The notes beneath the pieces were generated by a model. It was not told where the DNA came from and did no database searches. It worked only from the letters and a program-made list of their open reading frames with translations. 64,000 nt of DNA, from contig NZ_JAMZIE010000003.1 in NCBI RefSeq assembly GCF_024178165.1, forward strand, positions 1 to 64,000. Reading direction: 5' to 3'. Both the position numbers and the translations under genes were made by a program. The first letter of the stretch is position 1; each line of letters begins with the position of its first letter. Of the stretch, positions 475-34,888 are shown one piece after another. The DNA comes from Halohasta salina. GTDB taxonomy: Archaea; Halobacteriota; Halobacteria; Halobacteriales; Haloferacaceae.

Positions 475-882
475 TCAGTCATGCGAGCGCTCGCTCGGCG
501 GCGTGAGCGACCGTCTATCCGAGGAGTCGATGCCAAGCACCGTCGTGGCCAGCCGGTCGGCCACCAGCGGGCTCACCGATCCCGCCAGTTCGAACGCTTC
601 GGCCTCGGGGTCGTCGAGATCGAGCACGTCATCGAAAAAGCGGCGCAACACCAGATACGACTGCTGCAGCTCGACGGCCCGCTCGTGGCCCGCGTCGGTG
701 AGTTGGGTTCCCTCGTAGGGCTGGTGGTCGACCAGTCCTTTGTCGGCGAGCCGCTGGAGCATCTCGGTCGCGGTCGACGGCGACCGGCCGAGTTCGTCGG
801 CGACCCGTCCCGAGGCGACCGGCTCGCCGCTCGGGCCGGCGAGTTGGTAGACGACCAACAGATACTGTGCGGCGTCGCTCAT
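475..882 (-). CDS. DtxR-family-like winged-helix regulator lacking canonical metal ligands
   Basis: A 135-residue protein. Residues 1-60 form the winged helix typical of DtxR/MntR/SirR regulators (YLLVVYQL, a recognition helix with SPSTATEMLQRL, then a GTQLTDAG wing). Residues 65-120 resemble the DtxR dimerisation domain (LRRFFDDVLDLD, then SPLVADRL). The positions where DtxR has Cys, Glu and His ligands read Phe, Ala and Gly in my hand alignment, and no His follows the wing. I chose the Met at 882 because an upstream Met at 990 would add 36 unrelated residues. The neighbouring genes include siderophore uptake, so a link to iron is plausible, but metal sensing by this protein is doubtful. Confidence 0.75.
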   Translation of the reverse strand: MSDAAQYLLVVYQLAGPSGEPVASGRVADELGRSPSTATEMLQRLADKGLVDHQPYEGTQLTDAGHERAVELQQSYLVLRRFFDDVLDLDDPEAEAFELAGSVSPLVADRLATTVLGIDSSDRRSLTPPSERSHD

Positions 883-940
883 CGACCCACCGTCCGGCGG
901 CAGGTGGTCGACGACTGGCGATGATGGGGTGCAGTGAGTG

Positions 941-1795
941 TCATACGCGTTGTGTGAGATGACGGCGAACGGTTCGCTGGCGGGACTCACAGTAGTCGGT
1001 TAGCTGGGCGGCCGCCGAGAGGACGGGGTAGTCGACCGCAAGCGGCTGGTAGAGGTACTCGACGAGCGTACTGTGTGAGAGGCTCGCAGTGGCCGTGTGG
1101 TTCGTCGTCCCGTGGAGCGTCGACTGGCGGTCGGCGGCGAGGGCATCACACTGCTGGCGGAAGTCGGCCAGTCGCTCGTGTCGGCGACAGAGGGCCTCGA
1201 ACCCGAGTTCCAACGACGGCTGGCAGTCGTCGATCCAATCGGCAAGCTCGCCGCGGAGGTCGTCGGCCGCTCGCAACGAGTCGGCCTCGGTGTCGAGTCC
1301 CTGCCGCATGGCCCGGAGTTCAGCTTGCGACTGGTCGACCGCCGAGCAGATCGCCGCCTGAACGTCGGCGGTGAACGCCCGGTCAGTCGACGGGGCCACC
1401 GCGAGGGCGATCTCGGGGCTGAGTTCTTCGCGGATCGTCACCAAGAGCGGCTCGGGCTCGTCGACGTCCTCGATGCTGTAAGGGCGGACCGTCTCGGCAA
1501 ACAGCGACCGAACCCGCCGGGTGGTGCCGTCGCTGGAGGTCCGGCCGCTGACGGCCGCCGAAATCGAGCCCGGCGGGCCGGTGCCAGCCGGAGCCGATCC
1601 TGCCGACTGCGCCGACCCCGCCGACGAGGTCGGTGAGGTCGTCGACTGCGCCGAGGGCGGTGAGGCCGTGGGGAGTCGACTGACCCCAGTAGCAAACCGG
1701 TCGAACGCTGTCAGTTTCTCGTCGATGTGGGTTCGCTCGTCGTCGATCAGCCGCCGGGCGTCGGCGAGCTCGGTGGCCAGCTCCGAGTCGGTCAT
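941..1795 (-). CDS. haloarchaeal protein of unknown function (DUF7260-like)
   Basis: A 284-residue soluble protein. It has an N-terminal helical segment (residues 1-40), a Ser/Thr/Ala/Gly-rich low-complexity linker (about 45-85), and a conserved helical C-terminal part starting with RRVRSLFAETVRPYS and containing EELSPEIALAVAP. This layout matches a haloarchaea-only family that I associate with DUF7260. No catalytic motif is visible. It overlaps the upstream gene by four bases (ATGA at 1792-1795), so the two are almost certainly translated from one mRNA, which may be governed by the iron operator near 2931. Confidence 0.75.
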   Translation of the reverse strand: MTDSELATELADARRLIDDERTHIDEKLTAFDRFATGVSRLPTASPPSAQSTTSPTSSAGSAQSAGSAPAGTGPPGSISAAVSGRTSSDGTTRRVRSLFAETVRPYSIEDVDEPEPLLVTIREELSPEIALAVAPSTDRAFTADVQAAICSAVDQSQAELRAMRQGLDTEADSLRAADDLRGELADWIDDCQPSLELGFEALCRRHERLADFRQQCDALAADRQSTLHGTTNHTATASLSHSTLVEYLYQPLAVDYPVLSAAAQLTDYCESRQRTVRRHLTQRV

Positions 1796-2712
1796 GCTGC
1801 CCCCGCTTCGACGACGCTCAGTGGACCGCCCGCCCCGTCAGCCGTCGCCGTGAGCGTGAGCCGCCACGACGGCGGGACGGTGGCCGTGCGTTCGACGCCG
1901 GAGATCCGGAAGTCGACCGCCGACAGCCGCCGGAAACATTCGACGACCAGCGGCAGGGTGACGATGCGGTCGGCGTTCCCGAGCGGGTAGTCGGTGAGGG
2001 TGAGCTCCCAGCAGGTCGACGCACAGCGAACCGACTGGCAGTCGACGGTGTACCCGTCGAGTATCGACATCGACTGGAGGCTATCGAGGGCGGCCTCCAG
2101 CGGGGCGGCGGTCGGCGTGGTCGTCGGCGTCGAGAGCCGACACGCCGCCGTCCGAAGGATCTCGGCCTGCTCGGCGGGCGAGAGCCGCGTGTCGAGTTCG
2201 GTGGCGATGGCCTCGATGAGGAGGAGACAGAGCTCGTCGGGATGAGCGACCGTCTCGGCCACTGCGAGATACCGATCCATGATCGCCGCCTGAACCGCCG
2301 AGTGCGACGAGTCGGCGATCGTCTCGAAGACGACCCCGGCGACGGTGTGACAGAAGTCGACTGTCGCCGCTCTGTCGTCGGAACGATCGACCGGGTCTGT
2401 CGCGGGTTCGGGGTCGGTCGTGGCTGCGATATCGGTCGCAGCGACGGCGTCGACCGCTGACGGCACCGTCTCGAACTGCTCGCAGACGATGATATCGCGG
2501 CGGGGAAGCTGTGGATCGTACCGCCGGAGGGCAGTACGGTACTGTTCGGTCGCCGTGGCCGCCGCCCGGGCGGTCGACCGGCGGTCGAAGTAGCAGCCGT
2601 CGGCTGGAACCGGTCGCTCACCGGTTCGGCTACAGACGAGGTAGTAGCTCCCGGTCGGGCTAGCGAGTGACTCGATGTGGTGGCGGATATCGCCGAGTGT
2701 GGTTCCGATCAT
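1792..2712 (-). CDS. haloarchaeal protein of unknown function (DUF7551-like)
   Basis: A 306-residue protein opening with IGTTLGDIRHHIESL, followed by a cysteine and a TARAAATATEQYRTALRRYDP helix. This N-terminal module is one I recognise in haloarchaeal proteins grouped as DUF7551. A helical middle (about 130-200) and a mixed alpha/beta C-terminal part follow. No transmembrane segment or catalytic signature is seen. The Met at 2712 starts the conserved module, and the frame upstream of it is not protein-like. The gene is translationally coupled to the next gene and lies downstream of a strong TATA box and an iron-type operator at 2931-2957. Confidence 0.75.
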   Translation of the reverse strand: MIGTTLGDIRHHIESLASPTGSYYLVCSRTGERPVPADGCYFDRRSTARAAATATEQYRTALRRYDPQLPRRDIIVCEQFETVPSAVDAVAATDIAATTDPEPATDPVDRSDDRAATVDFCHTVAGVVFETIADSSHSAVQAAIMDRYLAVAETVAHPDELCLLLIEAIATELDTRLSPAEQAEILRTAACRLSTPTTTPTAAPLEAALDSLQSMSILDGYTVDCQSVRCASTCWELTLTDYPLGNADRIVTLPLVVECFRRLSAVDFRISGVERTATVPPSWRLTLTATADGAGGPLSVVEAGAA

Positions 2713-2930: not shown

Positions 2931-2948
2931 TTTTAGGCTTACCTAAAA
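2931..2948 (-). promoter_or_regulatory. iron-type (DtxR/IdeR-like) operator
   Basis: The sequence TTTTAGGCTTACCTAAAA has perfect arms TTTTAGG and CCTAAAA around CTTA. This matches the TTAGGnnnnnCCTAA style of DtxR/IdeR and haloarchaeal iron-regulator sites. It abuts a minus-strand TATA box and sits where transcription toward the DUF7551/DUF7260-like genes should begin. Regulation is inferred. Confidence 0.65.
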
Positions 2949-3086: not shown

Positions 3087-4019
3087 CTACTGACTCCCGT
3101 CGGCGGACGTGTCCGGAGCGTCGGCATCCCGATTGTCGTGAATCGGCCCGATCGGTGTGATCGTCGGGCCGCGATCGGTCGACTCCACGTCGGCCTCGAT
3201 ACCGAACACCTCCGCGAGCAGGTCCTCGGTGACAACGTCTGTGGGCCGACCGCGGGCCCGGATCACGCCGTCTTCGAGCGCGATGATCCGGTCGGCGTAG
3301 CGGGCAGCCTGCTCGATGTCGTGGAGGACGACGACGACCGTGATGTCGCGTTCGTCCCGCAGCGTTTCGATGATCTCCATTACTTCCAGTTGGTGGTGGA
3401 GATCGAGGAACGTCGTCGGTTCGTCGAGCAACAGGACGTCGGTGTCCTGTGCGAGTGCCATCGCGATCCACGCCAGCTGTTTTTGCCCGCCGCTGAGACT
3501 GCCGACCTCCCGATCCCGGAGATGCTCACAGCCCGCCAGATCGATGGCGTTGTCGACCGCACACTCGTCGTCCTCGGTGACGTGCTCGAAGAACCCGCGG
3601 TGGGGGTACCGGCCGTGGTAGACCAGATCTTCGACGGTGATCGAGCCGGGGGCGGTGCTCTCCTGGGAGAGCAACCCGAGCTTTCGGGCGAGTGCCTTCG
3701 TGTCGAGGGTGTGGATCTCCCGACCGTCGATCAGGACCGACCCCTCGTCGGGCGTGAGCTGGTTGGCGAGTCCCTTCAGCAGCGTGCTCTTGCCGGAGCC
3801 GTTCGGACCGACGAGCGCGGTCACCGCACCCCGCTCGGCGGTGATCGTCGCGCCGTCGACAATGGGGCCATCGCTGGTTGGATAGCCCAATACGAGGTCC
3901 TCGCCGGTGAGCGTCGACGCCGAGCCCTCGGTCGACTCGGAGTCCACTTCGTCCGACGCCTCGGCGCTGTCGTCGGCTCGCTTCGTCGCTCGTGTGATCG
4001 ACCCGGTGATGTCGAACAT
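3087..4019 (-). CDS. ferric-siderophore ABC transporter ATP-binding protein
   Basis: A 310-residue ABC ATPase of the FecE/FhuC type that powers siderophore import. Walker A (GPNGSGKST) lies at residues 71-79, the Q-loop near 119, the ABC signature LSGGQ at 174-178, and Walker B with DE at 195-200. A 40-residue acidic N-terminal extension precedes the domain. Its start overlaps the permease stop (around 4019), so the two are translationally coupled. It is the last gene of the four-gene minus-strand uptake operon. Ferric siderophore versus cobalamin cannot be separated by the ATPase alone; the iron operators favour iron. Confidence 0.93.
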   Translation of the reverse strand: MFDITGSITRATKRADDSAEASDEVDSESTEGSASTLTGEDLVLGYPTSDGPIVDGATITAERGAVTALVGPNGSGKSTLLKGLANQLTPDEGSVLIDGREIHTLDTKALARKLGLLSQESTAPGSITVEDLVYHGRYPHRGFFEHVTEDDECAVDNAIDLAGCEHLRDREVGSLSGGQKQLAWIAMALAQDTDVLLLDEPTTFLDLHHQLEVMEIIETLRDERDITVVVVLHDIEQAARYADRIIALEDGVIRARGRPTDVVTEDLLAEVFGIEADVESTDRGPTITPIGPIHDNRDADAPDTSADGSQ

Positions 4020-5149
4020 CAGAGCTCACCCATCTGTTGTTGTTTCCGCATCAGATACAGGAAGTAGGGCCCGCCGACCAGCCCGGTGACGATGCCGACC
4101 GGGATCTGGACCGGGGTGAGCGCCAGCCGTGCGCCGACGTCCGCGCCGACCATCAGCGCGGGGCCGACGAACAGACAGCCGACGATCAGCTTCCGGTAGT
4201 CGCTGCCGACCAGGTTCCTGACCACGTGGGGAACGATCAACCCGACGAAGGTGACGATCCCCGCGACCGCGATGCTGGCCGAGGCAGCCAACACGGCGAC
4301 ACCGGACAGCGCGAACCGAACCCGCTCGATGGACATCCCGAGGGATTTCGCCGTCTGTTCGCCCAGCAGCAGGACGTTACATTGTCGGGAGCCGGCGACG
4401 GCCAACAGCAATGCGCCCACCGACCACGGCAGCGCGAGCCGGACCTGCTCCCAGTCGGTGCCGGTCAGCGAGCCGGTCGTCCACGCGATGGCCGACTGGA
4501 CGACCCCGATGTCGTCGGCGAAGAAGAACAGCGAGGTCTGGAGGCTCTCGAAGACGGTGGCGACGATGATCCCCGCCAGCACCAGCCGGACCGGCGAGGT
4601 GCCGTTCTTCCACGCAATCGCATACACGAGCAGGAAGGCGACCGAGCCGCCAGCCGCCGCGATTAGCGGGAGAAACGCCGTCAGCCCACCGAAGACGACG
4701 AGTGTCAGCAGGATCATCAGCCCCGCCCCGGCGGAAACCCCGAGGACGAACGGACTGGCGAGTTCGTTTCTGGTCACCGCCTGGAAGATAGCCCCCGACA
4801 CCGAGAGGTTCATCCCGACGAGAATTGCGACGAACACCCGTGGCAGCCGGATGTTCCAGACGACGAGGCTCTCGGTGCTCATCTCGGGCAGCTCGCCGCC
4901 GAACAGGAAGGCGTTCCACGCCTCGAGGTTCAACACGACGTTCGGATCGAAGACGGCCTGCCAGGCCTGCGTGATCGTCATCGAATAGGAGCCGAAACTC
5001 ACCTGAATCAGCCCACCGATGACGACGATGGCGAGGCTGCCGAGGGCGACCGCCAGCAGTTGTGGATCGAACAGCCAGCCGAACCGGTTCTGTAGTCGTG
5101 GGGATCGCGTTGTCTGCTCGGCTCCGGGAGTCGACTCCTGATTGCTCAT
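4019..5149 (-). CDS. ferric-siderophore ABC transporter permease (FecCD family)
   Basis: A 376-residue polytopic membrane protein. After a polar N-terminus of about 30 residues it has roughly ten hydrophobic segments and the FecCD signature regions (NIRLPRVFVAILVG near residue 100; SIAVAGIVTFVGLIVPH near 310). It forms the membrane channel with the ATPase and receives cargo from the Tat lipoprotein encoded upstream. Its start codon overlaps the oxidoreductase stop in an ATGA at 5146-5149. Only one permease gene is present, so the channel is presumably a homodimer. Confidence 0.93.
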   Translation of the reverse strand: MSNQESTPGAEQTTRSPRLQNRFGWLFDPQLLAVALGSLAIVVIGGLIQVSFGSYSMTITQAWQAVFDPNVVLNLEAWNAFLFGGELPEMSTESLVVWNIRLPRVFVAILVGMNLSVSGAIFQAVTRNELASPFVLGVSAGAGLMILLTLVVFGGLTAFLPLIAAAGGSVAFLLVYAIAWKNGTSPVRLVLAGIIVATVFESLQTSLFFFADDIGVVQSAIAWTTGSLTGTDWEQVRLALPWSVGALLLAVAGSRQCNVLLLGEQTAKSLGMSIERVRFALSGVAVLAASASIAVAGIVTFVGLIVPHVVRNLVGSDYRKLIVGCLFVGPALMVGADVGARLALTPVQIPVGIVTGLVGGPYFLYLMRKQQQMGEL

Positions 5150-6131: not shown

Positions 6132-7343
6132 TTAGACGTCTCCGTTGACGATGTCGGCGACTCGTTGGCGGTCGAACAGCTGTTCGTCGGCGGGGATTTC
6201 GGGGTACGGGCCCTCCTCGTATTCTGGCCATGCACCGAAGGTATCCGGATACAGCTGCTTGGCAGTCATCTCCAGCTGGAACAGATTGAGAATCGGCCCC
6301 TGATATCGGGCCCCCTGTGGGTACAGCCGGTCGTCCTGGACTGCCGTGATCTCCGAGGCCACCGGATCGGATCGAAACGCCTCCCGTCGCTTCGGGAGGC
6401 TCGTCTCCGGTTCGAAGCCGCCGAGCAGGAGGATCACGTCGGGGTCGGCCTCCAGTAGCGTCTCGAAGTCGACCACCGAGTTCGATTCGACCTCCCCCTC
6501 GAAGGCGTCGCGTGCGCCGAGCGGTTGAGTGTGAGCAGTCAGGAAGCCGGGGGTACTCAGCGTGTAGGCGTAGATCTCTTCGATATCGGCCGACGCGAGC
6601 ATCACTGCCGAGGGGCGCTCGGATTCGGCCGGGAGATCCGTCTCGATAGTCGACAGGAGATCCTCGTGGATTTCGGCGAGCGCCTCGTACCGGGCCTGCT
6701 CTTGGAACGCCTCGGCAACGAGTTCGAACTGTTCCCAGAGGGTGTAGTATTCGTAGCCGTCGGCGTAGGCAGCCGCCGGTTCGGCGTGGCGATCGGAAAG
6801 CGAGTTGCCGAACCACGGTGAAATAGTGGTGCCGATCTCGTCGATATCTGCTTGGTCCCAGCCGTCCTGTTTGGTGATCCACGCCGGGTCCGCGAGATGG
6901 ATATCGCTATCGAGTTCGTACAGTTTCTCTTTGCTCGGCTCCCACGAGGAGTAGAGACCGGTCCAGTCCAGCGAGACGCCCGGCAGGCGTTCGACGAACT
7001 GGTTCCACAGTCCATCGTAGTAGTCGGGAGCGTGCATCGCCGTGATCGAGTCCCCCCGACCGAGGGCGAATGCCATCCCGGCATGGTGAGTGAGTCGCGT
7101 GAAGACGGTCTCGGGCGGCGACTCGAAGATGACCTCGCCCATCGGCGCGATCGAGACCGTATACGAGTCATCAGCCTCAGTCGAGTCACCATCGGCCTCG
7201 TTCGAATCACCGTCCTCGCTGGCGTCCGTCGGCTCGGTCGACGACCCCGTACAGCCGGCTAGGAGACCGCCGCCGACCGCGCTTCCGATGCCGAGATAGT
7301 GTCGACGTGTAACGTCCAACTGCGTTTCGAACCCTTCCTGCAT
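6132..7343 (-). CDS. ferric-siderophore substrate-binding lipoprotein
   Basis: A 403-residue precursor. The N-terminus has a twin-arginine motif (RRHYLG) and a lipobox (LLAGC), followed by an acidic Ser/Glu/Asp linker, so it is exported by Tat and anchored outside the membrane. The body is the two-lobe FepB/BtuF-type fold (VFTRLTHHAGMAFALG, then a VILLLGGFEP region). I chose the Met at 7343 because it lies 23-28 bases from a TATA box and gives a proper signal peptide; a Met at 7367 would fall upstream of the predicted transcription start. It is the first gene of the uptake operon. Confidence 0.92.
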   Translation of the reverse strand: MQEGFETQLDVTRRHYLGIGSAVGGGLLAGCTGSSTEPTDASEDGDSNEADGDSTEADDSYTVSIAPMGEVIFESPPETVFTRLTHHAGMAFALGRGDSITAMHAPDYYDGLWNQFVERLPGVSLDWTGLYSSWEPSKEKLYELDSDIHLADPAWITKQDGWDQADIDEIGTTISPWFGNSLSDRHAEPAAAYADGYEYYTLWEQFELVAEAFQEQARYEALAEIHEDLLSTIETDLPAESERPSAVMLASADIEEIYAYTLSTPGFLTAHTQPLGARDAFEGEVESNSVVDFETLLEADPDVILLLGGFEPETSLPKRREAFRSDPVASEITAVQDDRLYPQGARYQGPILNLFQLEMTAKQLYPDTFGAWPEYEEGPYPEIPADEQLFDRQRVADIVNGDV

Positions 7344-7348
7344 GCGTT

Positions 7349-7363
7349 TTAGGGTAGCCTTAA
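7349..7363 (-). promoter_or_regulatory. iron-type operator at the transcription start of the siderophore operon
   Basis: TTAGGGTAGCCTTAA has arms TTAGG and CCTTAA (one base imperfect) and lies between the TATA box (7366-7371) and the start codon at 7343. Binding here would cover the transcription start. Confidence 0.6.
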
Positions 7364-7365
7364 CC

Positions 7366-7371
7366 AATAAA
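7366..7371 (-). promoter_or_regulatory. TATA box of the siderophore operon
   Basis: The minus strand reads TTTATT, 23-28 bases upstream of the ATG at 7343, which fits a leaderless transcript. Iron-type operators flank it on both sides. Confidence 0.55.
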
Positions 7372-7384
7372 GGAGTTTCGGAAC

Positions 7385-7398
7385 TTAGGGAGACCTAA
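7385..7398 (-). promoter_or_regulatory. upstream iron-type operator of the siderophore operon
   Basis: TTAGGGAGACCTAA has perfect arms TTAGG and CCTAA with a 4-base centre, just upstream of the TATA box. It overlaps the TAG stop (7395-7397) of the small gene upstream. With the site at 7349 it brackets the promoter, suggesting two-dimer or cooperative binding. Confidence 0.65.
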
Positions 7399-9140: not shown

Positions 9141-9560
9141 ATGAACTACCGTGAGGTCACCACCACCGGCGAGTATATGGCGCGGCTCGAAACCGGCGCG
9201 GACTGGCGCGAGGAGATCGAAACGCTCGCTGCGGACGTCGACGCCGAAGCTGGCTGGTTTAGCGCCCTCGGCTCGGTCGAGGACGCCGAGATCTGGTTCT
9301 ACGATCAGGACGACAAAGAGTACCAGTCGGTGACCTTCGACGAACCGCTGGAAGTCGCCGCCTGTGTCGGCAACGTCAGCCTGCTGGACGGCGATCTGTT
9401 CGCCCACACCCATGCGGTGCTCTCACGGCGGAACGGGCAGGCGCTGGCAGGCCACATCAACGCCGGGACCGTCTTCGCGGGCGAGTTGTATTTCCGTGCG
9501 TTCGAGACACCACTGACCCGCGAGCGGGACGAGGATACCGAGTTGGACCTCTGGCTGTGA
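9141..9560 (+). CDS. PPC-domain (DUF296) protein
   Basis: A 139-residue protein made of a single PPC domain, the fold found in plant AT-hook proteins and in stand-alone prokaryotic proteins. The conserved HTHAVLSRRNGQALAGHI segment (residues about 93-110) carries the histidines thought to bind a metal. It is commonly called DNA-binding, but the prokaryotic function is unclear. Its stop overlaps the GTG start of the DP2 gene (GTGA at 9557-9560), so it is coupled to a replication polymerase gene. Confidence 0.85.
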   Translation: MNYREVTTTGEYMARLETGADWREEIETLAADVDAEAGWFSALGSVEDAEIWFYDQDDKEYQSVTFDEPLEVAACVGNVSLLDGDLFAHTHAVLSRRNGQALAGHINAGTVFAGELYFRAFETPLTRERDEDTELDLWL

Positions 9561-12500
9561 GCGAGACGAGCGACGGCCCCGTCGACGGCGACCAGCCGGA
9601 AGAGACCGAGAACCGGACGCCGATGCGACCGGACGACGAACGGTATTTCGACCGGATCGAGAGCCGTCTCGACGAAGCGATGGCGGTCGCCGAGCGCGCC
9701 AAAGGCCAGGGCAAGGACCCCCAACCCGAGGTCGAGATTCCCATCGCCCAGGACATGGCCGACCGAGTCGAGAACATCCTCGGGATTCCGAACGTCGCCG
9801 AACGCGTCCGGGAGCTCGAAGGCCAGATGTCCCGCGAGGAGGCGGCCCTCGAACTGGCAAAGGACTTCGCGGAGGGCCGCGTCGGCGACTACGACAGCAA
9901 AGCCGGGAAGATCGAAGGGGCAGTCCGAACCGCGGTGGCCCTCCTGACGGAGGGTGTTGTCGCCGCCCCCATCGAGGGGATCGACCGGGTCGAACTGCTC
10001 GACAACGACGACGGCACCCAGTTCGTCAACGTCTACTACGCCGGGCCGATCCGGTCTGCGGGCGGCACGGCACAGGCGCTCTCGGTCCTAGTCGCCGACT
10101 ACACCCGGAGTATCCTCGGTCTCGCGGAGTACAAAGGCCGCGAAGAGGAGATCGAACGCTATGTCGAGGAGATCAACCTCTACGACAAGGACACCGGCCT
10201 CCAGTACTCGCCGAAGGACAAGGAGAGCCGGTTTATTGCCACCAATATGCCGATCATGCTCGACGGCGAGGCGACCGGCGACCTCGAAGTCTCGGGCTAC
10301 CGGGATCTCGACCGCGTCGACACCAACTCCTCCCGCGGCGGGATGTGTCTGGTGATGGCCGAAGGGATCGCCCTGAAAGCCCCCAAAATTCAGCGCTACA
10401 CCCGCCAACTCGACGAGGTCGACTGGCCGTGGCTGCAAGACCTCATCGACGGCACCATCGAAGGCGACAAGGACGACAGCGACGAGGAAGCCACGGCAGA
10501 GGGCGACGAGGACGATGCGGATGACGAAGCTGACGACGGCGACAGCGAGACGGGCGACGACAGCGCGCCCGACGGACCAGCACGTGTCAAACCCAAAACG
10601 AAGTACCTACGCGACCTGATCGCGGGTCGACCCGTCTTCGGCCATCCCTCCGAATCGGGCGGGTTCCGACTGCGCTACGGCCGCGCCCGGAATCTGGGGT
10701 TTGCGACTGCTGGCGTCCATCCGGCGACGATGCACATCATCGACGACTTTCTGGCCACCGGCACGCAGATCAAGACCGAACGCCCCGGCAAAGCGGCGGG
10801 GATCATCCCCGTCGACTCCATCGAGGGGCCGACCGTCAAGTTGGCGACCGGCGAGGTCCGCCGGATCGACGACCCCGAGGAGGCACTGGAACTCCGCAAC
10901 GGCGTCGAGAAGATCCTTGATCTCGGCGAGTATCTCGTCAACTACGGCGAGTTCGTCGAAAACAACCACCCCCTCGCGCCGGCCGCCTACGCCCCCGAGT
11001 GGTGGATCCAGGAGTTCGATGCTGCGGGCGCGGATGTGCAGGCGCTGGAGGACGACCCGCACGTCGACCTCGAATCGCCAACCGCCGCCGAAGCCCTCCG
11101 GTGGGCCAGCGAGTACGACTGCCCGCTCCACCCGAAATACACCTACGTCTGGCACGACATCCCGGTCGAGGCCTTCGAGGAACTCGCCGCGGCCGTCGCC
11201 GACGGCGAGACTCGTGAGGGCGGCGACGTGCTCGTCGTCGAGCGAAGCAAGACGATCCGGCGGAGCCTCGAAACGCTGCTGGTCGCCCACCAGCAGACCG
11301 ACGAGAGCTGCGAAGTCCGCGATTGGCTCCCGCTGGCCCGCTCGCTCGGTGTGAGCGAGGACCTCACGAAAGAGTGGGACGAACTCTCCGACGAGGCGCA
11401 GGCGTGGGACGGCGGCGACAACGCCGTAAAGGCCGCCAACGAGGTCGCCCCCTTCGAGTTGCGGGAGCGTGCGCCGACGCGGATCGGCGCACGGATGGGT
11501 CGACCCGAGAAGTCCGAATCGCGGGACCTCTCGCCGGCAGTCCACACGCTGTTTCCGATCACCGAGGCCGGCGGCAGCCAACGAAACGTCGCCGAGGCCG
11601 CCCGGACGATGGACGACCAGGGTCGACGCGGTGTCCACAGTATGCGGATCAACCAACGGCTGTGTCCGGACTGCGGGACCCGGACGTTCAAATCCCAGTG
11701 TCCAGACTGCGGTGCCCACACCGAGCCGCACTACGAGTGTGAGGACTGTGAGGTCGTCTGCGAACCCGACGAGGCCGGCCGGGTCGAATGTCCGCGCTGC
11801 GAACGCGAGGTCACCGCCGCGGACTGGGAGGAGGTCGACCTCCGCAGCGAGTACCGCGAGGCACTGGAGACCATCGGCGAACGCGAGGGCAGTTTCGACA
11901 TTTTGAAAGGTGTCAAAGGGCTCACCTCGGCGAACAAGACCCCCGAACCGATCGAAAAGGGGATCCTCCGGACGAAACACGGCGTTTCGGCGTTCAAAGA
12001 CGGGACGGTCCGCTACGACATGACCGATCTGCCGGTGACCGCAGTCAAACCCGAGGAACTCGACGTGACCGCCGACCACTTCCGCGGGCTGGGCTACGAG
12101 ACCGACATCAACGGCGACCCGCTGCGGCACGACGATCAGCTTGTCGAACTCAACGTTCAGGACATCGTCCTCTCGGACGGCGCGGCCGAACATATGCTGA
12201 AGACCGCGGACTTCGTCGACGACCTGCTGGAGCGGCTGTACGGCCAGCCCGCCTTTTACGACGTAGAGGAGCGCGACGACCTCGTCGGGGAGTTGGTCTT
12301 CGGGATGGCCCCACACACGAGCGCGGCGGTCGTCGGTCGCGTCGTTGGGTTTACCAGCGCGGCAGTCGGCTACGCGCATCCGTACTTTCACGCCGCCAAA
12401 CGGCGGAACTGCTTCCATCCGGAGACCGAAATCAAATACCGAAACGTCGGCGGCGAATGGCAGTACGAGGATATACAGTCCATCGTTGAAGAGCGCCTCA

Positions 12501-13708
12501 CAGATCCGGAAACGGACGATTTCGGCACCGAATTCCAAAAACTATCGGCGACGATCGAGGTGCCGTCGATTGACAGTGACGGTAACCGAACTGTCCAGCG
12601 AGTCGACGCTGTCTCGAAACACCAGTCGACTAACCACCTCGTCACCATCGAAACGGAACACGGTCGAGAGATTACTGTCACGCCGGACCACACCATGCTC
12701 CGGTGGGATAATGGCCCACAGGAAGTCGACGCGATGGCACTCGAAGTCGGTGACACGGTCCCGGCACCGAGCAGTCCTAACCGGGAGCCGGTGACTGGTT
12801 CCGACAGCAGCGAGCCGATCGAGTTGTATGGTGACGGTGGGAACATGCTGGTGGACGAAATCACGTCGGTACAGTACGTCGAAAGTGATATCGACCACAC
12901 GTACTGTCTGACTGTTACAGAAACGAACACACTCGTCGCAAATGATCTATTTACTGCGCAATGTGACGGCGACGAAGACTGTGTTATGTTATTAATGGAC
13001 GGCCTTTTGAATTTTAGCAGAGAATTCTTGCCAGATAAGCGCGGTGGGAGGATGGATGCACCTTTAGTGATGTCCTCGCGAATCGACCCCGCGGAGATCG
13101 ACGACGAGGCCCACAACATGGACATCGTCGACACCTACCCACGAGAGTTCTACGAGGCCACGCTGGAGATGGCCGACCCCGAGGAGGTCGACATCCAGAT
13201 CGGCGAGGACACCCTCGGCACCAAAGACCAGTACCGCGGCTTCGACCACACCCACTCGACGACCGACATCCACATGGGGCCGAGTCTGTCGGCCTACAAG
13301 ACACTCGGCTCGATGATGGACAAGATGGACGCCCAACTGGAGTTGGCTCGCAAACTCCGGGCGGTCGACGAGACCGACGTGGCCGAACGCGTCATCGAAT
13401 ACCACTTCCTCCCGGACCTGATCGGCAACCTCCGAGCCTTTTCGAGCCAAGAAACCCGGTGTCTCGACTGCGACGAAAAGTACCGCCGGATGCCGCTCTC
13501 TGGAGAGTGCCGGGAGTGCGGCGGCCGGGTGAACCTCACCGTCCACGAGGGCTCTGTCAACAAGTACATGGACACCGCTATCGAGGTCGCCGAGCGGTTC
13601 GGCTGCCGGGAGTACACCAAACAGCGCCTGCGGATCCTCGAACGCTCCCTCGAATCGGTCTTCGAGAACGACAAGAACAAACAGAGCGGCATCGCGGACT
13701 TCATGTAG
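9557..13708 (+). CDS. polC: DNA polymerase D large subunit DP2, with in-frame intein
   Basis: A 1383-residue precursor of the catalytic subunit of archaeal family D polymerase, the replicative polymerase that works with DP1. The sequence shows the N-terminal DP2 domain, an acidic low-complexity insert (about 305-350), Cys-rich zinc modules (about 700-755 and 1300-1325) and the catalytic KRRN/CDGDED site, which is interrupted by a mini-intein at residues 952-1135. The spliced protein is 1199 residues. The start GTG at 9557 overlaps the previous stop. A foreign-looking codon tract follows the intein. The family name is also written polD2. Confidence 0.97.
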   Translation: MSETSDGPVDGDQPEETENRTPMRPDDERYFDRIESRLDEAMAVAERAKGQGKDPQPEVEIPIAQDMADRVENILGIPNVAERVRELEGQMSREEAALELAKDFAEGRVGDYDSKAGKIEGAVRTAVALLTEGVVAAPIEGIDRVELLDNDDGTQFVNVYYAGPIRSAGGTAQALSVLVADYTRSILGLAEYKGREEEIERYVEEINLYDKDTGLQYSPKDKESRFIATNMPIMLDGEATGDLEVSGYRDLDRVDTNSSRGGMCLVMAEGIALKAPKIQRYTRQLDEVDWPWLQDLIDGTIEGDKDDSDEEATAEGDEDDADDEADDGDSETGDDSAPDGPARVKPKTKYLRDLIAGRPVFGHPSESGGFRLRYGRARNLGFATAGVHPATMHIIDDFLATGTQIKTERPGKAAGIIPVDSIEGPTVKLATGEVRRIDDPEEALELRNGVEKILDLGEYLVNYGEFVENNHPLAPAAYAPEWWIQEFDAAGADVQALEDDPHVDLESPTAAEALRWASEYDCPLHPKYTYVWHDIPVEAFEELAAAVADGETREGGDVLVVERSKTIRRSLETLLVAHQQTDESCEVRDWLPLARSLGVSEDLTKEWDELSDEAQAWDGGDNAVKAANEVAPFELRERAPTRIGARMGRPEKSESRDLSPAVHTLFPITEAGGSQRNVAEAARTMDDQGRRGVHSMRINQRLCPDCGTRTFKSQCPDCGAHTEPHYECEDCEVVCEPDEAGRVECPRCEREVTAADWEEVDLRSEYREALETIGEREGSFDILKGVKGLTSANKTPEPIEKGILRTKHGVSAFKDGTVRYDMTDLPVTAVKPEELDVTADHFRGLGYETDINGDPLRHDDQLVELNVQDIVLSDGAAEHMLKTADFVDDLLERLYGQPAFYDVEERDDLVGELVFGMAPHTSAAVVGRVVGFTSAAVGYAHPYFHAAKRRNCFHPETEIKYRNVGGEWQYEDIQSIVEERLTDPETDDFGTEFQKLSATIEVPSIDSDGNRTVQRVDAVSKHQSTNHLVTIETEHGREITVTPDHTMLRWDNGPQEVDAMALEVGDTVPAPSSPNREPVTGSDSSEPIELYGDGGNMLVDEITSVQYVESDIDHTYCLTVTETNTLVANDLFTAQCDGDEDCVMLLMDGLLNFSREFLPDKRGGRMDAPLVMSSRIDPAEIDDEAHNMDIVDTYPREFYEATLEMADPEEVDIQIGEDTLGTKDQYRGFDHTHSTTDIHMGPSLSAYKTLGSMMDKMDAQLELARKLRAVDETDVAERVIEYHFLPDLIGNLRAFSSQETRCLDCDEKYRRMPLSGECRECGGRVNLTVHEGSVNKYMDTAIEVAERFGCREYTKQRLRILERSLESVFENDKNKQSGIADFM
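12410..12961 (+). mobile_element. mini-intein in DP2
   Basis: This is a 184-residue in-frame insertion splitting the catalytic KRRN|CDGDED motif. Block A begins with Cys (CFHPETEIKYR), block B has TVTPDH with the TxxH pattern, and block F ends ANDLFTAQ followed by Cys+1. The terminal residue is Gln instead of Asn and the penultimate residue is Ala instead of His, as known for other Pol-II inteins. There is no LAGLIDADG endonuclease domain, so it is a splicing-only mini-intein. Splicing must restore the active site for DP2 to work. Confidence 0.93.
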
Positions 13709-33508: not shown

Positions 33509-34747
33509 TCAGTCGACCGTCGGCCGCAGGAGCCGCACGACGATGCAGGTCCCGCCCGAGGCGCTCGGTTCGACGCCGACTCTGCCGTCGGCGCTCCGGA
33601 CGATCCACCGGGTCAGCCAGAGTCCGACCCCCGAACTGTGGCTGAGCGGGGTTTCGGTGTCGGTGGTCAGGACCTCCCGTTCGGCGGGTGGGAGTCCGGG
33701 ACCGTCGTCGGCGATACGGAGCGTCAGGTAGTCGTCGTCGGGCGTCGGCTCGGAGACGGTCACGTCGACGCGGGGCGTCGACGACGGGTTGTGGATGACG
33801 GCGTTCTCGAGGACGTTGTCGAGGGCGTACGGCAGCAGGTCGTGTGCCACCGCCGGGGCGGTCTCGGGGACGGACGCAGTCACCTCGGCCGACGGATAGT
33901 CGGCTTCGAGGCGACCGAGACGCTCGTCGACGATGGCACCGAGATCGATCGGCGTCACGCCGCCCTCGGCATCGCCTTCCAACTGGTCGATACAGCGTGC
34001 AGCCTCGCTCAACTCGGTGATGTTCCCGAGTCGTTGCTCCATCACGTCGACGTGGCGGTTGTCCGCGGGTAGCTCGTCGGCCAGCATCGAGAGATGGCCT
34101 TGGATGACGTTGATGTCGGTTCGGATGTTGTGCCGGAGGACACGGTTGAGCACCGAGAGTCGCTGTGCCCGCTGTTTTTGAGCCGTGATATCGCTGATGG
34201 CGAACGTCGCCCCGCTGAACCCCGCGTCGGTGTCCTGGAGCGGAGCGGCCCAGATGCGGACGTCGAGCACCGACCCGTTCCGGTGGCGGTGCTGGGCCTC
34301 GATGCCGGCCAGCGACTCGCCGCTCCGGAGTCGATCGCCGAAGGAGTCGGTGATCTCCGGTGTGGCCGTCAGACAGACGGGATACTGCCGGTTGTGCATC
34401 TCGGCCTCGCTCCAGCCGAACATCCGCGCCGCGCCGTCGTTCCACAGCTGGATCGCCCCGTCGGTGTCGACGACCACGATAGCGATGGGGACCGCTTCGA
34501 TCACGGTCGTCAGCCGGTTGCCCAGATACTGGATCGCCGTCGTCAACACGTCGGCCTCGTCTTCGGCATCCAAGCGCTCGTTCAGTACGGTGAGACAGTC
34601 GACGAAGAGGTTCTGTGCCAGCTCCTCGCGGTCGTCCATCGCCTTTCGCTGGTAGGTCTCCAACAGCAGCTGCTGGGCGTCTCCGTGGCCTTCGTCCGCG
34701 AGCACACGAAAGAGTGCGCCGATCAACTGGTCGGTATGACCACCCAT
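33509..34747 (-). CDS. PAS-domain sensor histidine kinase linked to an iron-type operator
   Basis: A 412-residue cytoplasmic kinase with no membrane segment. Residues 1-75 are an unassigned helical region, about 80-190 a PAS domain followed by DITAQKQ, the H-box is LNRVLRHNIRTDI with His206, and the rest is a HATPase domain (DNVLENAVIHN; RIADDGPGLP). The ATG is directly preceded by an iron-type palindrome, so its expression is predicted to follow iron. No response-regulator gene is adjacent. The signal it senses is unknown. Confidence 0.9.
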   Translation of the reverse strand: MGGHTDQLIGALFRVLADEGHGDAQQLLLETYQRKAMDDREELAQNLFVDCLTVLNERLDAEDEADVLTTAIQYLGNRLTTVIEAVPIAIVVVDTDGAIQLWNDGAARMFGWSEAEMHNRQYPVCLTATPEITDSFGDRLRSGESLAGIEAQHRHRNGSVLDVRIWAAPLQDTDAGFSGATFAISDITAQKQRAQRLSVLNRVLRHNIRTDINVIQGHLSMLADELPADNRHVDVMEQRLGNITELSEAARCIDQLEGDAEGGVTPIDLGAIVDERLGRLEADYPSAEVTASVPETAPAVAHDLLPYALDNVLENAVIHNPSSTPRVDVTVSEPTPDDDYLTLRIADDGPGLPPAEREVLTTDTETPLSHSSGVGLWLTRWIVRSADGRVGVEPSASGGTCIVVRLLRPTVD

Positions 34748-34763
34748 TTTAGGCTTGCCTAAA
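34747..34763 (-). promoter_or_regulatory. iron-type operator abutting the sensor kinase start
   Basis: TTTTAGGCTTGCCTAAA has perfect arms TTTAGG and CCTAAA around CTTG. The last base is shared with the start codon (34745-34747), so a bound regulator would block transcription start or ribosome access on a leaderless message. Confidence 0.7.
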
Positions 34764-34888
34764 GGCTAGGGTGGGTTAACCATTTGGATACCGACGAGGC
34801 AGGATCGCTCGTCGTGGGTCGGTTTGATCGAAGCGAACGGGAGGAGACTCGTCGCCGGATTGGTATCCGCTGGCGGTCGCGTATCGGT

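Follow-up and report, generated by a model that had tools for sequence, protein, structure and literature searches.

In Corynebacterium glutamicum, hrrA, which encodes the response regulator of the heme two-component system HrrSA, is repressed by DtxR (PMC12327846), and thus the principle of an iron repressor acting on a two-component gene is known in bacteria. The DtxR consensus of Corynebacterium is TTAGGTTAG(G/C)CTAACCTAA (PMC1382209). In Xanthomonas campestris the two-component system VgrRS serves adaptation to iron starvation, its kinase being described as sensing iron directly at the membrane (PMC5231390). In Haloferax volcanii all fhu siderophore-uptake operons are reported to carry the signal of the DtxR-family regulator ferR (PMC11349517).

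The locus described here lies in a 64,000-nucleotide stretch of the Halohasta salina genome (hereafter the window). Akin to the control of hrrA, a DtxR-family iron repressor is predicted to act on a two-component gene, so that iron state would enter a phosphorelay. Whereas hrrA is a bacterial gene whose product is partnered with a membrane-bound heme sensor as its response regulator, the predicted target here is an orphan soluble PAS kinase of archaea, with a DUF7551-type N-terminal domain. The half-sites, TTAGG and CCTAA, are those of the C. glutamicum type, which are more widely spaced (PMC1382209). As in the haloarchaeal FerR / Idr-SirR-TroR iron regulon, a DtxR-family regulon would include siderophore uptake; the available excerpt of that account, however, names no histidine kinase as a member (PMC11349517). 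With VgrRS the locus shares a two-component link to iron starvation, but here iron would set the amount of kinase, whereas the VgrRS kinase is described as sensing iron itself (PMC5231390). No iron-regulated histidine kinase of haloarchaea came up in the literature searched; because the main DtxR-regulon studies of 2011, 2015, 2017 and 2024 lay outside that search, the status of a first report is unproven.

The features at the kinase locus are as follows.

33509..34747, minus strand: histidine kinase gene, product of 412 aa (Pfam, orthologue alignment and AlphaFold2 model), with a four-helix DUF7551-N domain at residues ~4-85, PAS at 79-187, an H-box with H206 and HATPase_c at 306-407
34508..34747, minus strand: coding region of the kinase N-terminal domain, by profile comparison homologous to the N-terminal half of DUF7551
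34748..34763, no strand assigned: operator TTTAGGCTTGCCTAAA, a perfect inverted repeat (TTTAGGC-TT-GCCTAAA) with the core TTAGG-N4-CCTAA at 34749-34762, abutting the kinase ATG and kept in 34 of 35 orthologues
approx. 34775..34780, minus strand: weak TATA-like hexamer GTTAAC (CTTATC/TTTATA in orthologues), placed by positional conservation upstream of the gene

The first-pass annotation had described a palindrome with perfect arms touching the start codon of the kinase, and this is what the minus strand reads: TTTAGGCAAGCCTAAA-ATG, the A of the ATG being position 34747. The palindromic TTAGG...CCTAA half-sites, the hallmark of an iron operator, are exact. With up to three mismatches allowed, the 16-mer has four matches in the window against 0.34 expected, a count that no shuffle reached. 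Across the genome of 3.04 Mb in 25 contigs, TTAGGNNNNCCTAA, i.e. the core TTAGG-N4-CCTAA, gives 14 sites, and a reversed-pattern control gives one. Six kinase-bearing relatives carry 13-28 sites each, against 0, 0, 0, 0, 1 and 7 for their reversed controls. An operator serving a divergent gene was also considered and rejected: no plus-strand gene is called beside the site, and the upstream neighbours of the orthologues differ.

Orthologues of the kinase with 43-57% identity were found in Halopenitus, Salinibaculum, Halovenus, Halobellus, Haloferax, Halonotius, Halobaculum, Haloarcula and Halomicrobium. Its distribution is patchy: of 392 genomes sampled from the class, 30 have the gene, as a single copy, and these fall in 12 of 86 genera; it is absent from all three sampled relatives of the same genus, and no annotated plasmid-borne copy was found. 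Conservation of the palindrome in front of orthologues had been proposed as a check on the claim, and its absence there was not borne out: among 35 distinct loci (duplicates removed) the core is exact at 32, has one mismatch at two and is missing at one (L042, genome G181), and at all 34 site-bearing loci it holds the same position, ending 0-1 nt from the start codon. Pairwise identity between these sites is 99% in the arms and 43% in the four central bases; over the 50 nt upstream it drops to 34%, so that the flanks are close to random. Apart from the operator, upstream conservation is seen mainly in a TTAT (-31 to -28, numbered back from the end of the site) and in an A-rich element around -36; these probably represent the archaeal TATA box and BRE. 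The neighbours of the kinase gene are common only within genera and differ between genera, none being conserved across them, and hence the operator stays with the kinase gene. Since L042 branches inside the kinase family beside Haloferax (FastTree topology, support values disregarded), its missing site is best read as a secondary loss. A further kinase copy, on the MAG contig CAKZQY010000225.1 (L026/L133), has an intact operator and a frame broken after ~44 codons, and is either a pseudogene or an assembly error.

The product had been called a cytoplasmic PAS histidine kinase, and we agree: Pfam recognizes PAS and HATPase_c (E 1.6e-15), and no membrane segment is evident, the highest mean hydropathy over 19 residues being 1.62. 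HisKA scores 21.1 bits, under the Pfam cut-off of 26.9; H206, N315, D347, G349 and G351 are invariant in the alignment of 30 kinase orthologues. In the AlphaFold2 model (mean pLDDT 78), four helices at the N-terminus are followed by a PAS domain, an extended helical segment that holds the H-box, and a kinase ATPase domain; the nearest folds to this model are PAS/LOV histidine kinases. A search of the conserved positions for metal or heme ligands gave no conserved Cys, and most of the conserved His fall within the H-box, the PAS domain or the ATPase region. No response regulator adjoins the kinase at its loci across genera; because the catalytic residues are intact, the kinase would be expected to phosphorylate a response regulator encoded elsewhere.

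Other copies of the operator place the site among iron genes. The relevant features of the window are these.

475..990, minus strand: DtxR-family regulator, candidate binder of the operator (PF01325, E 2.3e-14; internal ATG start likely)
1792..2712, minus strand: DUF7552-DUF7551 protein of 306 aa (Pfam), with the N-terminal domain of the kinase
2933..2946, no strand assigned: another copy of the operator, TTAGGCTTACCTAA, ahead of the DUF7552-DUF7551 gene
3087..5149, minus strand: uptake-operon genes for an ABC ATPase (3087-4019) and a FecCD/FhuB-type permease (4019-5149)
6132..7343, minus strand: leading gene of the uptake operon, for a siderophore-type substrate-binding lipoprotein (Peripla_BP_2)
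7349..7398, no strand assigned: two operators in tandem at a spacing of 36 nt, one imperfect (7349-7362) and one at 7385-7398, upstream of the siderophore-type binding-protein gene

The earlier statements that the palindrome is the one found in the uptake operons, and that the kinase lies ~27 kb from the siderophore genes, are both correct. Two sites, at 7349 and 7385, stand upstream of the gene for the siderophore-type binding protein, the nearer (7349) being 5 nt from its ATG at 7343, and the site at 2933 precedes the DUF7552-DUF7551 gene (ATG at 2712), not an uptake gene. Further sites in the genome stand before FbpA/FbpB-like transport genes and an ABC ATPase, one lies between a DUF5059-halocyanin gene and DpsA, and a few have no obvious iron link. 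In the relative G276, sites precede a siderophore-type binding-protein/ABC cluster and genes for a DtxR-family regulator, an FbpA-like protein, a GMC oxidoreductase and a DUF7552-DUF7551 protein.

Across 30 genomes of the family, the exact operator precedes 15 of 20 siderophore-type binding-protein genes (18 of 20 with one mismatch allowed), whereas none of 30 ZnuA-type Mn/Zn genes and none of 29 SBP_bac_5 peptide-binding genes has it. The 20 genes are those whose match to the Pfam model is confined to its C-terminal part, a pattern that, judging from the window's own operon, appears to mark siderophore-type proteins; the best-scoring Peripla_BP_2 loci, taken as mostly of other substrate types, have the site in three of 29 cases. 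These counts bear out the label of an iron-type operator, and on these gene assignments it holds that the site marks iron rather than Mn/Zn genes. Tandem sites 36 nt apart are common before the siderophore-type genes of relatives (L234-L253); the kinase has a single site, and repression there may therefore be weaker.

The N-terminal domain of the kinase links it to one of these genes. Against PF24420 the kinase matches positions 9-81 of 187 (E 2.5e-6; 28.1 bits, under the cut-off of 52.6); it is thus no full-length DUF7551 by the Pfam threshold, which a few orthologues pass, with the N-terminal half only. Comparison of this domain with the N-terminal half of DUF7551 by hhalign gave 97.4% and E 1.2e-11 over 70 columns, and the kinase and DUF7552-DUF7551 models have a matching four-helix pattern. 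On these alignments, the first ~80 residues of the kinase and the N-terminal half of DUF7551 share a common origin; searches by sequence for solved relatives of the domain gave insignificant matches only. Among the DUF7551 loci of other genomes (L077-L106), ~18 of 30 have the site within ~350 nt upstream, and in G276 it abuts the ATG of the DUF7552-DUF7551 gene, as it does at the kinase. The DUF7552-DUF7551 protein is, by the placing of these sites, a recurrent member of the predicted operator regulon, which puts the uncharacterised DUF7551 domain in an iron regulon. By inspection, the kinase and a full DUF7551 gene have no clear association in their occurrence. The best Foldseek matches of the DUF7552-DUF7551 model are H-NOX proteins (E 1.9e-4), with a TM of only 0.30 (query) and 0.43 (target). 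We rejected DUF7551 as a true heme H-NOX, there being no conserved proximal His in the stretch 200-256 (correspondence by eye); DUF7551 had no sequence match to H-NOX chains, and PF07700 had no match in the genome. The likeness to H-NOX seen in the model is a weak lead.

In light of these observations, we consider it likely that a DtxR-family repressor blocks the kinase gene when iron is ample, and that starvation derepresses the kinase and, through it, a two-component output. The palindrome would be the operator of an iron-loaded DtxR-family repressor; that a metal-bound protein of this family represses the kinase is the strongly favoured step, and the candidate binder is presumably one of the three clear DtxR-family proteins of the genome, of which one is encoded in the window. 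Given the place of the TATA-like element, the predicted transcription start falls within the operator or on the ATG itself, and a protein bound between TATA box and start codon should thus block initiation of a probably leaderless transcript. As iron falls, the repressor would be released and transcription of the soluble PAS histidine kinase derepressed, and the kinase would then modulate two-component output. Because the operator is kept at the same spot in nearly all relatives, iron-starved cells very probably make the kinase. The common helical domain suggests that the kinase and the co-regulated DUF7552-DUF7551 protein may respond to one signal or contact one partner.

Three other accounts of the site were weighed against this one. 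That the palindrome before the kinase is a chance match, or an inherited one without function, is very improbable: chance was ruled out by the genome-wide control together with the conservation among orthologues, and an idle relic is contradicted by retention in 34 of 35 of them despite divergent flanks and a variable centre. The operator might instead answer to Mn or another divalent metal, through an MntR/TroR-like DtxR member, the kinase then being a Mn-limitation gene. The DtxR family does include Mn sensors, the DtxR-like protein of the window scores best, weakly, against MntR models, and a P1B metal ATPase gene has a site at its start; the contrast between ZnuA-type and siderophore-type genes, and the presence of the site at Dps and iron-uptake genes, make this account unlikely.

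We hold it just as unlikely that the DtxR-family regulator activates or fine-tunes the gene, so that the kinase is made when iron is ample. DtxR of Corynebacterium is a dual regulator, with opposite signs for dps and ftn (PMC1382209), and here too one site lies near DpsA. Against activation, the site at the kinase follows the TATA-like element and reaches the start codon, where a bound protein would block, and it is found in the same position at siderophore-type genes, where induction at low iron is expected.

Repression relieved by iron starvation is thus the reading that we retain. Haloarchaea have many orphan histidine kinases without known purpose, and one of them now has a firm, testable physiological context, iron limitation, because its operator has been kept over deep divergence. 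It suggests that archaeal iron state, beyond switching uptake genes, feeds a phosphorelay, as with DtxR and hrrA in Corynebacterium. A broader proposal, which we put forward tentatively and regard as rather doubtful, is a two-tier haloarchaeal iron response in which the iron repressor would set how much of a dedicated soluble kinase is made. The kinase and the co-regulated DUF7552-DUF7551 protein, which would be a heme-less H-NOX relative, would have their sensory helical domain in common; this would be a new iron-starvation signalling module, acting from the kinase on an unlinked response regulator.

Several other sites and one gene of the window deserve mention. The operator at G000:C18:283669 (L068) runs into the beginning of a gene for a P1B-type heavy-metal ATPase, which may export iron or another metal. 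GMC-oxidoreductase-like genes, unexpected as regulon members, are preceded by operators in two genomes (G000:C19:219587, L006 and L072; L143). At G000:C18:484482 and 484516 (L070), ~4 kb from a DtxR-family gene, two operators in tandem precede the gene of a 77-aa protein that matches DUF7553 weakly, under the threshold. In one relative (L134, G397:C2:131332) the operator directly adjoins the start codon of a gene for an HTH_10 (Bat-like) transcription regulator, and at L132 (G175:C5:17202) that of a small gene, FeoA-like by eye. Among the operators picked out as abutting an ATG in other genes, those besides these two and L133 gave short reading frames only. The window also carries, at 9557-13708 on the plus strand, a gene for the DNA polymerase II large subunit (DP2) with an intein-splicing domain.
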